Shown piece by piece: positions 9,609-60,798 of a stretch of DNA of 64,000 nucleotides. The stretch covers positions 29,682,402 to 29,746,401 of the forward strand of contig NC_088301.1 in the NCBI RefSeq assembly GCF_032854445.1, given 5' to 3'. The translations under genes were made by a program, and so were the position numbers. How positions within the stretch are numbered: the stretch's first letter is position 1; the number at the start of each line of letters is the position of its first letter. The DNA comes from Liolophura sinensis. Lineage: Eukaryota; Mollusca; Polyplacophora; Chitonida; Chitonidae. The notes below the pieces were generated by a model. That model did not search any database. It saw only the letters and a program-made list of their open reading frames with translations, and had not been told where the DNA came from.

Positions 9609-10224
9609 TCAGTCTTGCTGAATTTTCAGATGCTTAACAGGTGATAAAGTGTCAGTACCACTGCGTGCCTTAGACACTAGGCAAAAGCTCTCTTTCAGTT
9701 CCATATTTATCAGTGTCCGGAAAAGATGAGAGCCACTATAGACAATCTCTAAGGGATCTCCACATCTGACAAAACCTAGTTTACTGAAAAATCCTTCAGC
9801 CCTCTGGGCACTTTGAACATGTATTGCTCGAGCTGGCAAGTATGTTCCCATCTTCTGCACCGCTTGTTCCATTAGTCTGGTCCCAATGCCATTCCCTTGG
9901 TAGTCTGATTCCCATCTTCTGCACTGCTTGTTCCATTAGTCTGGTCCCAATGCCATTCCCTTGGTAGTCTGATTTGACAAATAGAAATGTCACATGATGA
10001 AAAAAATCTGAAAGGAATTGTTTATCTTCTTTGTCCTTATTTGTGTCGGCCAGTTTAAAGGTAATACCTCCTACTGCTGTTATTTTGCCTTTCATATAAT
10101 CATATGCCATGATAATGGAATTCTCCTCTGGAATATCAAAGATTTCTCCACTTGTCTCCCTTGCTAATTGTCGAAACTTGTGTCTTGTCTTACTGTTCCG
10201 AAGTTCTTCCACAATCTCAACCAT
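9609..10224 (-). pseudogene. GNAT-family N-acetyltransferase, frame broken by 64-bp duplication
   Basis: GNAT enzymes transfer acetyl from acetyl-CoA to an amine; the substrate here cannot be told. The start is the ATG at 10224 in a CCAACATGG context, just inside a cttcttaacag acceptor at about 10229, so an upstream non-coding exon is likely. Residues 78-94 hold the acetyl-CoA-binding motif A (HVTFLFV..DYQGNGIGTRL, Q-x-x-G-x-G). After the break come the C-terminal RAEGFFSKLGF and a last strand, with TGA at 9609. A 64-bp direct duplication (9847-9910 and 9911-9974, one difference) shifts the frame directly after motif A, and the shifted frame stops near 9796. Counting one copy, the frame is open for 183 codons, a normal size for a single GNAT domain. 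Whether this is a real null allele, a young pseudogene or an assembly artefact is undecided. Confidence 0.75.
9847..9974. repeat. 64-bp tandem duplication inside GNAT exon
   Basis: Units 9847-9910 and 9911-9974 are identical except for c/t near 9861 and 9925. 64 is not a multiple of three, so the duplication destroys the reading frame. Confidence 0.95.
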
Positions 10225-11058: not shown

Positions 11059-11073
11059 TCATTGGTAGAAGAG

Positions 11074-12224
11074 TGAGTGATCATATACATCATTTCTACT
11101 ATTACATGTACATGATACTTGTACCAGCTGTATCACCTGTACCAGCTATATCACCTGTACCAGCTATATCACCTGTACCAGCTATATCACTTGTACCAGC
11201 TATATCATTTGTACCATCTATGTCACTTCTACCAGCTATATCATTTGTACCATCTATGTCACTTGTACCAGCTATATCACTTGTACCAGCTATAGCATTT
11301 GTACCATCTATGTCACTTGTACCAGCTATATCACTTGTACCAGCTGTATCACTTGTACCAGCTATATCATTTGTACCATCTATGTCACTTGTACCAGCTA
11401 TATCACTTGTACCAGCTATATCACTTGTACCAGCTATATCATTTGTACCAGCTATATCACTTGTACCAGCTATATCACTTGTACCAGCTATATCACCTGT
11501 ACCAGCTATATTAGGGGCATAGTCTAAATAGAAAATCTATTGCGGGACCATGCATATTTCACCAAAACTACAATAATCTTTATTACACTTATACCTGTAG
11601 CTGTAAAATAAAGACAAACAGTGGTAAGAATATATAATGTATGACCCCTAAAATAGTTTGCCATCTTTGATTCTGACATACTCCCGTCCATATTTCTAAA
11701 TCAATGGGCGAAAAGACAAGATGGGGTAAGACAGCTCTTCTAAATATCCAATTCACATATCCTTATTACGGTCAAAAAATGTATATAAAAGCGTGTTACA
11801 TGAAATTCTGTGTCTTTACGCCCAGGTAAAGGCACCCAACTTTCAATTTGGGATGCCCGGAAGTGCCATAAGCTTTCATTCTGACTTTGGACGATGCCCG
11901 GTAAGGAGTGAGTGAGTGTTTGGGGTTTAATGTCATACTTAACAAATTTTCAGTCATATGACAATGAAGGAATCCTTAGAGTGCATGTAATGTGCCTCCT
12001 TGATGCAGGATGGCTGAGACGTCTGACCGAAGACAAGAAAACCGCCTTGCCCGATCCATTATACTGATAAAGGTCAACCAGTCGTTGCACTATCCCCTTC
12101 ATGCTGTACGCCAAGCGAGGAAGTTATAACTTCCTCTTTTAAAGTTTTAGGTGTGACTTGACCCAGGACTGACCCTGGATCTACCGCTCCCGATCCGGAA
12201 GCTCTACCAACTGTGCTACCGGGG
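11074..12224 (-). mobile_element. Composite SINE-B retroposon with minisatellite tail (long copy)
   Basis: Read on minus, it starts with a tRNA-like head (ccccggtagcacagttggta, an A-box-like segment, then a B-box-like segment). It continues through the SINE-B body to about 11.91 kb, a unique body of about 400 bp, and an 18-bp minisatellite with about 22 units. It ends in gatgtatatgatcactca. A 15-bp direct repeat (tcattggYagaagag, one mismatch) lies at 11059-11073 and 12225-12239 and marks the whole 1.15 kb as one retroposed unit. A second copy in opposite orientation lies at 17.60-18.42 kb. Confidence 0.8.
11119..11511. repeat. 18-bp minisatellite, about 22 units
   Basis: Unit ttgtaccagctatatcac with variants (accatctatgtcac, accagctgtatcac). 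Because 18 is a multiple of three and the unit lacks stops, all copies stay open as V-P-A-I-S repeats on plus. There is no supporting gene structure. The unit is direct and spacer-free. Confidence 0.95.
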
Positions 12225-12239
12225 TCATTGGCAGAAGAG

Positions 12240-15053: not shown

Positions 15054-18000
15054 GTAAGTGAGAACATCTCTATAATTGTTTCAATTTTCCTGAATTTTGT
15101 TTGAGACGTCAACGCTTTGAAAATAGCTGTTCAAGAACTGAGAGAAAGATATTGCAACAACAACAACATTTTCGAAGTCATAACATCGCGTCTTCGAAGC
15201 ACAATTTCTTTGGTAAATTGTGGTTTGTTGACTTATCCACGCAGGGATGCAGTAGTAACTATCCTCAGAAATTCTTTTACAACCCGGCAATGATGGGATA
15301 CAGGAGAGACCTAAAGGCTATACATTGTTGCGATAGTTCCAGCACTCGGTCATATTAATATTAACGTACTTCCTGACAGCTTGAATACTGGGGCCACTTA
15401 CAAAATAACGTGCGACAAATGTATGATAAAAACATATTGTACGCCGCTTTATGCATGTGGCCCCAGGTCAGCTGCCCTACGACAACTGGTCCAATAGTTC
15501 AAGTTGTATGGTGCACGATTTTACATAGTTTGGGAAATAACATGTAGTTATTCTTACAATTCACACAATTTTCTGTAGTTATAAATTTGTTATGTCTGGG
15601 GCTATTTTATATGTACATAATATTCCCAGCTACTTTGGTGTCAAAATATCTGTCTTAAAGCAAGGTGAATTGATAAAGACGGGATAGTCTGAATTGCTTT
15701 TCTAAATTGTGAAAATATTGCAGCAAATTAAAACCGATATTGTACATTTTCTCAGAGTATACGGAAACAACATATTTCTGTCCCTTCCACTTTGCGTGAT
15801 GTGACGTCACCCATGGGCACATGACACATCTACAAATGACGCTGCCCTTTCAAATGCTCTTGATGTCATCCCTGCTAAATGCCTTACTCAGCGTCATATC
15901 TGACTGTTCGACGTCATGCAGGGAATGTTATCACGTCACATCAGGAAAATTTTATGGACACAGCTGAAGATTTTGTTTTTCAAACAATCTTCAGGTATAT
16001 AGGTTAAATAGTGTTATTCATCAAAATCCTATTGAAATGTGGTGTTAGGCTTAGTCCGTAGGATTTCTTTCATTGAAAATATTTCTACGTAATTTGTATT
16101 CTGACCAGAATATTCTGGCGCTTTAAGGGTTAGAATACATATTTCACTGTGTGGTCACACATTCAACTGTTTTGACAGATCTCACCAGACATTGGTACTT
16201 TTGCAGTGATGTTACAGCTGCTCTGAGCCAATCATCAGCACACTGTCTGGTCATGTGACTGAAGTACTGAAGGTGAAAACAAAACAAATTTAACCTAGGT
16301 GAGGTAGGCACTAACTGAGGTATATTTTAGCATGAAAAATAAAAAATATAGCTTATACAGTAAGAAATTCTTTCTGGAAAAGTAATCAGATTGTGTCTAT
16401 CCTTCAGATATGATAGTTTCAGTGTCATGTAGTATTATGAACTTGAGGAATCGACAAAAATTAGCATTTCGCTCATTTAGCCTTACATGTATGTAAATTA
16501 TTTATCACCTCCTGCTGCTTAATTGCCAGGAACCTAGGTGCTCAACACTATGAATAACTTGATGTAAGTACAGAAAATAGTGTGAATCTTAAGAAACCAA
16601 CGAGCCTGTAGTTACTCTAGATATCAGTTATTTTGAAAAAGACATTTTTCTCTGTAAAAGTGGATGATAAAACCGTTGCACCAGTCAGCGGTTGCATCAG
16701 TTGGCTGCATACCGACAGCTTGACCGTAAGTTGGGTAAAACTAAATATATCCAAGTCGTTAGGCAGTATGTCAGTTCCAGGCTGATTACTCAGACTACAA
16801 TGTTTTGACTTTCTGTGATCTTTTAACATTTCATGACATACATGTGACTATAACTGCAATGTGCTCCGATATCACTTTGCAATATATACATGCTGGAGGC
16901 CGGCTTGAGTTTTTTTTTTTGTTTTATTTTGATTGGTGTTTTATGCCGTACTCAAGAATATTTCGCTTATACATCGGCGGCCAGCATAATGGTGGGCGGA
17001 AACCCGGGGGAAACCCACAACCATCCGCAGGTTGCTGACAGACCTTCCCACATACAGCCAGAGAGGAAGCCAGCATGAGCTGGACTTGAACTCACAGCGA
17101 CTGCATTGGTGAGAGACTCCTAGGTCATTACGCTACGCTAGCGTGCTAACCTTGAGGTTTGAGTTCATATACATGTAGGTACTGAAAGACAAAGATGTCA
17201 GAGGAAAGGCAATGTCAAAAAAAAAAAAATAATTCAGTTTATTTTTTTGAATATTTTTAACATCTGATATATATGCACGTACTTCATTTTTTTGCCTTAA
17301 TCTACAAATTGATGGATGATAAAGTACTATGATATTCAGTTTTGGTACCTCAAATGGCAGATCAAAACAAAAAGAAACTAAATTTCAATTGAAAGAAAAA
17401 CCCGAGAGTGGAGGTGCCCTTGAAAAAATGACATTGACTGTGTGAACGGCTGACTTGGTATTTCTGGGAATCAAGAATGACTGTCGGTCACACAATTCCT
17501 TGTCTGTCTTTCTGTCGCATGAATCTTCAGTTGTTCAGGCCACTGATAAATGTGAGGCCATTCTGCATTTACTAGGCATTACAGGTCCTTACCGCGCACT
17601 GGCCCCAGTAACACGGTAGGGCGTCCGCTTTGGGAACGGTAGATCCAGAGTCAATCCTGGGTCAAGTCACACCTAAGACCTTAAAAAAGAAAGTTTTAAC
17701 TTCCTCGCTTGGCGTTCAGCATGAAGGGGATAGTGCAACGACTGGATGACCCATATCAGTATAATGGCTCAAGCGGGGTGGCTTACTTGCCTTCGGTAAG
17801 GTTTCTCAGTGAAGCATCACTAGATAAGAGAGCGGTGGAAATCCTTCCTGCAATAAGGAGGCGCATTACATGCATTCTAAGGATTCCTTCGTCATCACTG
17901 AAAATTTGTTAAGTACAACGATAAACCCCAAACACTCACTCACTCCTTACTGTGCATCGTCAAAAGTCAGAATGAAAGCTTATGGCCTTTCCGGGCATCT

Positions 18001-21000
18001 CGTCGAGAACCTTTGCTTGTGCGTAAAGACACAGAATTTCATGTGACATGCTTTTATATACATTTTTTTTACAGTAATAATGATATGTGAATTGGATATT
18101 TAGAAGATCTGTCTTACCCCATCTTGTCTTTTCGCCCATTGATTTAGAAATATGGACGGGAGTATGTCAGAATCAAAGATGGCAAACTATTCTAGGGGTC
18201 ATACATTATATATTCTTACCACTGTTTGTCTTTATTTTACAGCTACAGGTATAAGTGTAATAGAGATTATTGTAGTTTTGGTGAAATATGCATGGTCCTG
18301 CAGTAGATTTTCTATTTAGACTATGCCCCTGATATAGCTGGTACAAGTGATATAGCTGGTACAGGTGATATAGCTGGTACAAGTATCATGTACATGTAAT
18401 AGTAGAAATGATGTATATGATCATGATAATGTTCGTCAGTTTTATAGAGGAACTCAGAGCCCAGGAAAACCTCCATGTTATGGCAAGTCAGTGAGTGTAA
18501 CATGACGCAAATGGCTGCACGAGTGTTGTCAAGCTCTTATTGACACCAAACGCCCACAGACCAGGTTTCTTAAGGGGGTCTTGAAAAACTTAGAAAATCT
18601 GAAACTTGAAAGAAACTTTTCCAGGTTTTGGAAAATCAGGGGGTTTTGTAGTTGGGCCTGGAAAAACATTGAAATTGAGACTACAGAACCAAACTGAGCA
18701 ATTGCGTATAGTATATCCTCTTCACAAAATTTGTTTTGCGACGTTGAAATTCCTTAATGCAGTTCTATGTATATGAGAAAGACTGAAAATGCAACTAATT
18801 GGAGTCAATTTACATGGCTTTAAAGCTTGTATAAGCGTAGAATATTTATTCCAAATATCTTGGAAGGTACGTTCATTTATCCCCAATGCATAGCTTGCCA
18901 TTGACCACCAAGAGCACCAGCAATGTACAGCATGTGTAAATAAACAGACTACATGTGTCTTATGTACAGAAACATCTAACTGATGTTTTGTTAACATACG
19001 TACCTGTACATTCTTCATCACTTTAATTTCTTAGGCTTATGGCATTGTCTGGAAGGCCATTGACAGAAGAACAGGAGAGGTAGTGGCAGTTAAGAAGATA
19101 TTTGATGCTTTTCGTAATCAAACAGATGCCCAGGTAAGAGGATAATTTCCGTTCATCTTGTTTTTAAATGTTTCATGGGTAATAAATCAGCATGTGTGCC
19201 ATTGTTCTTTACAGCATGTGTGTTTTCAAATAAGGACCTATGTCATCTCAGTAATCAACCAGCTCAGGATTTGAGCTTAGACTGTTTAAAAGGAGGTTAT
19301 GTAGGGCTCGGTATTAAAATTACATCAACCCTCTAATCACTAGGTAATTTGTAGCAGCAATTTTTTCACTGCTGGAATGATATTGTGGAATGTGCAAAAG
19401 TATACTCTTAGCCATGTCTTGTCCCAATTTTTACACATGAATGGGTGTTTGTAGCTTATGGCTTAACAACAATGTTAGAGGCTACAAGTGCAGTAAAATC
19501 ACACTTTTTAGCTGTGTTAGTTTCCGACAGCCCCACCTTAACTTGTTTGCGTGAGCTCCTGTAATGTTGATTCGGTGTACATGCGTGACCTGTGCACATG
19601 TGCTGTATACATATGAACAAATACACTGTGTACATGTGCATATGATGTATATTTGTGAAAGCATTGTATATACCTTCATACTGCATATTAACACAACCAA
19701 ATTTGAGCAGATGCAAAATGCCCAAATTAATGCTACAAAAAGGCCCCAGTTACAAAGCTACGGTACATGTATATAAGGAAAGATGTTCAAACAAAATGTT
19801 TTAAATCGTAATCTCCTTATTCACTGAAAGTGATATTCCGATCAAAGCTGAAATACAACAGTGAAGCCACATTGGATGTACATGCATGTTAGACACTTCA
19901 CTTTGGAATCTATCTTTTTGTTAAATATATTGCATCTGTGATGTATTTTCTTGACTTTTCCCATTCTACGGATCTTCTTTAAATCTACATGTAAATCGCT
20001 GGTTTGTAGCTAAATTCTTTGTGACTTTAAATGTTTCAGTTCCAAAATTTTTATTCTAAATCTTGCCGTTATACGGTATTACAGTTTAGACTACGGCATA
20101 TCTAGGAAAAATAATGAAATTTAATGCACAAAGGTAAGTGAAAGGTTCTATATCTCACGCCATTGATTTGGTTAAGCAGCAATCAAATCCAACAATAACC
20201 TATTTATATCAATGATGTATAAACAAATGCAAGGTAAAATGTCATTTATATGATTAATGCAATATGTTAAATAGCATTCACGCCATTGAGCTTCTCTGTG
20301 AAAAAATGGATGTTATATAGGTTTGGGGTTCCCAAACAATGTTCAAACTGTATGATGGTCCTCAGTGGATCTCTTATTAGGCTTTGCAGTAAGGTGCAGA
20401 CTACTCTCAGGACTATAAACCACTGCTTGTACATCTAACATTCTTGTTCTGGTGTGCATTAAAATGTTCTTGTTTATTTCAGAGAACTTTTCGCGAGATC
20501 ATGTTTCTTCAAGAATTTGGTGAACATCCCAATATAATCAAATTGCATAATGTGATCAAGGCAGAGAACGACAAAGATATATATCTTGTTTTTGAGTTCA
20601 TGGGTAAGAATATGTGTATTACCTCTATAGTACACTAATTTTACTTATTTCTGTTTTATCTTAATTTAAGGGAATTAAAAATAGGAAGTGTGAAACATGA
20701 ATGGTGAGGTAAAAATTTGAAAGAAGCAATAAATATATTTTTGTCATAAAGCATAGACTGTTTTTATTATTGTCAGGTAGAGCCACCTGTTAAGGATAGA
20801 TTAGGAAGTTCTAAAGCTAACTTCACAAAAAATAGTTTTTAACTCCAGGAATTGATGACGGGTAGTGATGTTTAGAGGTTGTTTATGTTAAGCAATACTG
20901 TTTTTATAGCCTAGACTTAGCGTAGCAAATTAAAATGGTACTCTGCAGAAGATTACATGTAAACGGTCCATTTAGTAATTTATTCTTCATAGTCCTTCAA

Positions 21001-40912: not shown

Positions 40913-41252
40913 CCGACCCCGATAGCACAGTTGGTAGAGCGTCCGCTTCAGCAGTGGTAGATCCACGATCAATTCACACCTAAGACCATAAAGAGGCAGT
41001 TGTAACTTCCTTGCTTGGCGTTCAGCAAGGAGGGGATAGTGCAACGACTGGTTGACCCATACCCGTTGACCCGGGCGGGGTGGCTTACTTGCCTTCCGTA
41101 AGGTGTATCAGTGAAGCAGCACTAGATAAAAGAGCGGTGAAAATCCAACCTGCAACAAGGAGGCACATTACATGCACTCTAAGGATTCCTTCGTCGTCAT
41201 ATGACTGAAAAATTGTTAAGAACGACGTTAAACCCCAAGCACTCACTCAGTT
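40913..41252 (+). mobile_element. SINE-B head-only copy with target-site duplication
   Basis: Starts accccgatagcacagttggt (tRNA-like A-box region), continues through gcttggcgttcagca and cggggtggcttacttgcc, and ends cgttaaaccccaagcactca. Flanked by taagccttttaa at 40901-40912 and taagcctttaa at 41253-41263, one base different in length. It lacks the extra body and minisatellite of the long copies. Confidence 0.85.
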
Positions 41253-60526: not shown

Positions 60527-60798
60527 TATGGGATACCCACACCGATATAACCGCGTGACACTCTTGGTCCGTATCTACACTATGGGATATCCACACAGAT
60601 ATAGCTGCGTGACACTCATTGTCCGTCTCCAGACTATGGGATACCGGCCCATACCGATATATCGTGAAACACTCCTCGTCGGTATCTACACTATGGGATA
60701 CCCACACAGATATAACCGTGTGACACTCCTCGTCGGTATCTACACTATGGGATACCCACACAGATATAACCGTGTGACACTCATCGTCCGTATTTATT
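60527..60798. repeat. 54-bp minisatellite, five units
   Basis: Units starting tatgggata at 60527, 60581, 60635, 60692 and 60746, so the periods are 54, 54, 57 and 54. The period is a multiple of three, so one frame stays open on each strand. No gene context. Confidence 0.93.

Follow-up and report, generated by a model that had tools for sequence, protein, structure and literature searches.

SVA (SINE-VNTR-Alu) elements of hominids are described as composite retrotransposons (PMC12593883), and the composite examined here, A, resembles them in that a tandem repeat is attached to retroposon parts. SVA, however, has been amplified as a family, whereas the arrangement in this chiton, Liolophura sinensis, is found at two neighbouring places, A and B, and its repeat was found in no other copy. 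Accounts of 3′ DNA transduction by L1 and SVA describe flank of the source carried behind the copy and within the target-site duplication (PMC9311842). In A, similarly, the flank of B lies behind a SINE, inside the duplication and followed by a short CTCA; unlike L1 and SVA transductions, the copy lies 5.4 kb from its source, contains T6-T8 runs and has a mosaic pattern of divergence. A third described system, class 2 templated sequence insertion, involves patches that come from distant regions (PMC5110952). The origin that we favour for A shares with this class the copying of a patch from elsewhere in the genome during break repair, but its template would be an inverted copy nearby, paired through shared SINE sequence. 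Ectopic gene conversion and synthesis-dependent strand annealing likewise repair a break in one locus with sequence copied from a second one. The body of A, whose full-length relatives measure about 660 bp and carry 12-bp inverted repeats and 7-bp target duplications, matches miniature inverted-repeat transposable elements (MITEs), DNA transposons that are bounded by terminal inverted repeats and are not autonomous.

Composite A occupies positions 11059-12239, on the minus strand, of the window (the whole stretch of 64,000 nucleotides that was analysed), and consists of a SINE, a body of about 394 bp and 22 units of an 18-bp minisatellite within a 15-bp duplication. Read along the minus strand, the order is tRNA-like SINE, CTCA tail, body, 18-bp units, 40 bp of further sequence and lastly a short CTCA. 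The original prediction held that the duplication encloses the head, the SINE, the extra body and the whole array, and it does so with 14 of 15 bases matching between TCATTGGTAGAAGAG at 11059-11073 and TCATTGGCAGAAGAG at 12225-12239 (plus strand). Apart from A's own pair, no 15-mer within one mismatch of the copy at 12225 was found on either strand of the 64-kb window. The features of A, together with an ordinary copy of its SINE, are as follows.

11059-11073, minus strand: 3′ copy of the SINE A duplication, CTCTTCTACCAATGA on the minus strand, 14/15 against 12225-12239
11074-11077, minus strand: resumed SINE tail motif, a single CTCA running into the CTC of the duplication; B has TGATAATG here
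11078-11117, minus strand: 40-bp segment right of the array, common to B; homology stops at ATGATCA
11118-11513, minus strand: 18-bp minisatellite, 22 units by unit map (TRF, 11117-11511)
11514-11907, minus strand: inner MITE fragment, the extra body of the original prediction (genome matches, 20-copy alignment)
11908-12226, minus strand: SINE A, from tRNA-like head to (CTCA)n tail, with an internal deletion of about 33 bp
12225-12239, minus strand: 5′ copy of the SINE A duplication
40915-41250, plus strand: SINE C, an ordinary member of SINE A's family, with neither body nor array

The family to which these copies belong numbers 4,786 first-look candidates in the genome and consists of dispersed copies with a target-site duplication after a short repeated tail, as is characteristic of SINEs. 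The 40 copies fetched were drawn equally from two lists of 39 other rows each, one for C and one for SINE A (20 from each). The duplication (at least 11 matching bases, at most 2 mismatches) directly follows (CTCA)n in 34 of the 40, including L063, where it is of low complexity. Of the other six, L089 has 10/12 matching bases, and the rest match weakly, over 6-7 bases, in three cases at a distance of 33-46 nt. No convincing displaced duplication was present in the 40 copies within flanks of up to 70 nt, or less where the fetched stretch ended. Two stretches of family copies (TAGCACAGTTGG and GATCAATCC), candidate A and B boxes, fit the respective consensuses; in the 64-kb window ARAGORN found no tRNA, and a search of Rfam at gathering scores returned nothing. 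Copy C has its own duplication (TAAGCCTTTTAAC / TTAAGCCTTTAAC) and ends in its CTCA tail at the point where the body of A starts, which bears out the expectation of a head-only copy stopping there. The duplication of another copy, L085 (G000:C13:9958440-9958870), CACTTCTATCAATG, resembles that of A, CTCTTCTACCAATG, at 12 of 14 bases; the flanks look unrelated, and the likeness reflects coincidence or target preference.

The body had been taken for a 3′ extension gained by the SINE, a claim that its distribution in the genome contradicts. When it was searched against the same genome (609 Mb, 632 contigs; 43 match rows, 40 of 70 candidates scored), the matches comprised A, B and at least 38 other places, and all 38 were fetched. 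A SINE at the A/B junction occurs in 0/38 of these other copies and the array in 0/38, with at least 38 such copies in the genome; that most body copies should lack the head or the array is the very pattern named by the original prediction as speaking against it. Full copies are about 660 bp long, starting with TAGGCATTACAG and ending with CTGTAATGCCTA, which form an exact 12-bp inverted repeat in the majority sequence of 20 copies. Both ends were located in 21 of the 38, and a 7-bp target duplication is exact in 6 of these 21 and matches at 6/7 or better in 9 (controls, 3/420 pairs), the other 12 falling below 6/7. One copy, L016, has a SINE of this family between its MITE ends, at a different position from the A/B junction; in L034, L041 and L043 the SINE matches, full or weak, fall inside or close to the MITE, none of them at that junction. 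A comparison of the body with a phage collection gave no match. Judged from its copies, the body belongs to the interior of an independent MITE and is no extension of the SINE.

The second copy of the SINE, body and array, B, was overlooked in the original prediction. It spans 17597-18423 on the plus strand, has three units of the minisatellite, and is preceded by the MITE's own 5′ end (17573-17585), upstream of the SINE.

17573-17598, plus strand: MITE 5′ end in B with the terminal inverted repeat TAGGCATTACAG, then the 5′ SINE B duplication (matches the MITE 5′ end)
17586-17598, plus strand: 5′ copy of the SINE B duplication, TCCTTACCGCGCA
17599-17943, plus strand: SINE B, inserted within the MITE
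17944-18329, plus strand: remaining MITE fragment in B, opening with the 13-base 3′ copy of the SINE B duplication, TCCTTACTGTGCA
18330-18383, plus strand: minisatellite in B, 3 units (TRF, unit map)
18384-18423, plus strand: sequence right of the array, also present in A

The two copies of the SINE B duplication (TCCTTACCGCGCA / TCCTTACTGTGCA) match at 11 of 13 bases, and both mismatches are C/T differences at CpG. The site of insertion is uninterrupted in 24 of the 38 other MITE copies by a 40-base match with at most 8 substitutions, a test that A and B fail; the remaining 14 are shortened at the site, carry indels or are too diverged for a 40-base match. Relaxing the limit to 10 substitutions raises the count to 26/38 and lets B pass as well, and a 31-base version, passed by 27/38, was unspecific in that A and B both passed, and was replaced by the 40-base test. 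Behind B no MITE 3′ end is recognisable, and its MITE runs into the local 18-bp array. Because the SINE of B lies within a MITE and has its own 13-bp duplication, B is, on the evidence of this nesting, the original arrangement of SINE, MITE and array. The body of A can be traced to the same place: compared with the majority of 18 other copies, 19 non-majority states are common to A and B, 8 are private to A and 15 to B, and the 19 shared states indicate that the MITE copy of B was the source of A's body. About 600 bp downstream of B, an exon-like MAP kinase stretch at 19035-19133 (plus strand) has as its best structure match 3oz6_A, Mitogen-activated protein kinase 1 (E 3e-15). The stretch resembles MAPK15/ERK7, and B may sit in an intron.

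The minisatellite was originally proposed to be the 3′ end of a retroposon. By TRF the array in A extends over 11117-11511 with a period of 18 and 21.9 copies, corresponding to 22 units in the unit map (11118-11513). In a search of the 609 Mb that skips very common words, the array with its right flank (11 rows) matched at two places only, A and B, and under the same restriction no LINE carrying the 18-bp unit was seen. The unit maps read eaafaaabadabgabhbacccd in A and aca in B, so that some variants of A are absent from B, and copy number differs (22 vs 3) despite nearly identical flanks. Contrary to the proposal, the array seems to be a local tandem repeat. Two further tandem repeats were observed in the window, two 64-bp copies that are 98% alike at 9845-9974 and an array of 4.9 copies of a 54-bp unit at 60527-60793. 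The two SINE-body-array copies in the window are what could be expected of a SINE family that acquired a 3′ extension and a minisatellite tail and moves as one element. We nevertheless regard such a family as extremely improbable, given that the 38 other body copies include none with the junction SINE and none with the array, that the array was found at two places only, that the body is a MITE with inverted repeats and duplications of its own, and that the SINE duplication in B falls inside the MITE.

The question is then how the flank of B came to be in A, where the MITE fragment, the array and the 40 bp sit between the CTCA tail of the SINE and a further CTCA. Past ATGATCA, A reads CTCA and then the CTC of the duplication, and B reads TGATAATG. 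A and B are 5,358 bp apart and in opposite orientation; the chance of a uniform random insertion that near is 1.8e-5. Within the body there is a run of T8 on the transcript strand of B and a run of T6 in A, and runs of this kind should stop RNA polymerase III. The close range, the CTCA resumed after the insert and the T6-T8 runs together favour copying by repair over retroposition of a read-through RNA. We think it probable that A arose when B's flank was copied into the tail of a SINE A already in place, through a process like gene conversion between the two inverted SINEs. On this account A would have started as an ordinary SINE insertion with a 15-bp duplication. Repair of SINE A, after a break or the stalling of a fork there, would have used SINE B as template through pairing of the shared SINE sequence, and synthesis would have continued beyond SINE B into its flank. 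The new strand would then have rejoined the leftover tail of A at a TCA microhomology, by synthesis-dependent strand annealing or template switching. On this reading the minisatellite would be a passenger whose copy number changed, 22 vs 3, during or after copying. That the microhomology at the rejoining point amounts to 3 nt only counts against templated copying.

Differences between A and B are distributed unevenly, and they bear on how many events occurred. SINE A and SINE B differ at 45 of 307 sites, A and C at 46 of 299, and B and C at 45 of 326. With CpG sites set aside, the A-B figure for the SINEs is 27/262. The corresponding counts (all sites, then non-CpG) are 15/94 and 11/74 for body positions 1-105, 5/45 and 3/41 for 106-150, and 6/245 and 5/233 from 151 to the end; right of the array, all 38 aligned bases of the scored stretch are identical (0/38 differences). 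The distal part is thereby about 2% diverged, as against 10-15% for the proximal part and the SINEs. At non-CpG sites the distal body differs from the proximal body (p = 1.3e-4) and from the SINE (p = 1.8e-4), and SINE and proximal body do not differ detectably from each other (p = 0.30). The best single breakpoint, 466, lies about 140 nt inside the body, past the SINE/body junction. In B a deletion of about 10 bp in the MITE part is accompanied by a cluster of B-specific differences at 17944-18040; this cluster, possibly one complex mutation, accounts for some of the proximal excess.

A high-identity tract inside a more diverged homologous pair is the pattern expected of ectopic gene conversion or templated copying, and this mosaic implies at least one DNA-level exchange between A and B, in the distal part, after A existed. 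With the breakpoint about 140 nt inside the body, a single recent copying event is insufficient, and since divergence in the proximal body matches that of the SINEs, the first copying would be old and near the time of insertion. Copying of the flank into SINE A would accordingly need two stages, an early copying event and a later conversion of the distal part. An old first copying so close to the insertion counts against templated copying, and retroposition gives it for free. Divergence alone was considered as proof of copying into the SINE tail and dropped, the breakpoint being inside the body and not at the tail.

These observations keep in view, as the main rival, a one-off 3′ transduction, in which a transcript started in SINE B, continued across the MITE fragment and array and was retroposed 5.4 kb away by a helper LINE, which would have produced the 15-bp duplication; the distal part would have been homogenised later. 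A starts at the 5′ end of a SINE, the 15-bp duplication encloses everything and opens with CTC as do several family sites, a short CTCA closes the segment, and A-B divergence is alike in the proximal body and the SINE. Relationships among the SINEs leave room for such a descent: the tree of 27 copies is star-like, a clade of A and B is not rejected (p-AU 0.46), so that the two may be sisters, and they share 5 rare columns of the SINE alignment, where L085 shares 6 with each. B ranks 38th of 45 as a relative of SINE A and does not appear among the 39 other loci in the list for SINE A (40 of 5,053 candidates scored), both rankings being weak because young copies near the family majority stand closer to any old copy. 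The distances between the two SINEs fit independent insertions and equally a transduction very soon after the insertion of B; for want of any specific kinship of SINE A to SINE B, the event would have to follow that insertion almost immediately. The distance to the source, with its probability of 1.8e-5 under uniform random insertion, and the T6-T8 runs in the body weigh against transduction, as do the CTCA that B does not encode at that point and the lack of other offspring among the body and array matches found. Later conversion would be required in any case. On balance a one-off transduction is possible, though we do not consider it likely.

The unencoded CTCA might be accommodated if, in a 3′ transduction, RNA of a CTCA-tailed SINE ran on across hundreds of nucleotides of MITE and minisatellite and the helper reverse transcriptase added CTCA to a 3′ end that does not encode it, untemplated or by template jumping; A would then record the birth of an SVA-like composite, which strikes us as rather unlikely. 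Direct templating of the whole B segment, SINE included, into a staggered break at A, with fill-in producing the 15-bp repeat, would agree with the close range and inverted orientation. It is quite improbable, since a patch would hit the SINE 5′ end, where the insert starts, by chance only, 15 bp fits the usual duplications of the SINE family, and the CTCA after the insert is left unexplained. Proximity, tail and divergence thus move us from plain 3′ transduction to templated copying between the inverted SINEs.

In sum, the feature is real and is the product of nested insertion and, most likely, of local templated copying; the composite is not a new kind of retroposon. As to the proposal that the assembly was mobilised as one unit, the enclosing duplication stands, but a mobile element family does not, and for A itself movement as one unit is the less favoured account: there the duplication marks the insertion of the SINE, and the rest was most likely copied into its tail from B. 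A target-site duplication around a composite can therefore mislead, in that it dates the SINE and not necessarily its contents, and nested insertion with copying between near inverted SINEs can mimic a new transposon with a minisatellite tail. A and B also provide a pair of loci for studying change in minisatellite copy number (3 vs 22) after transfer.
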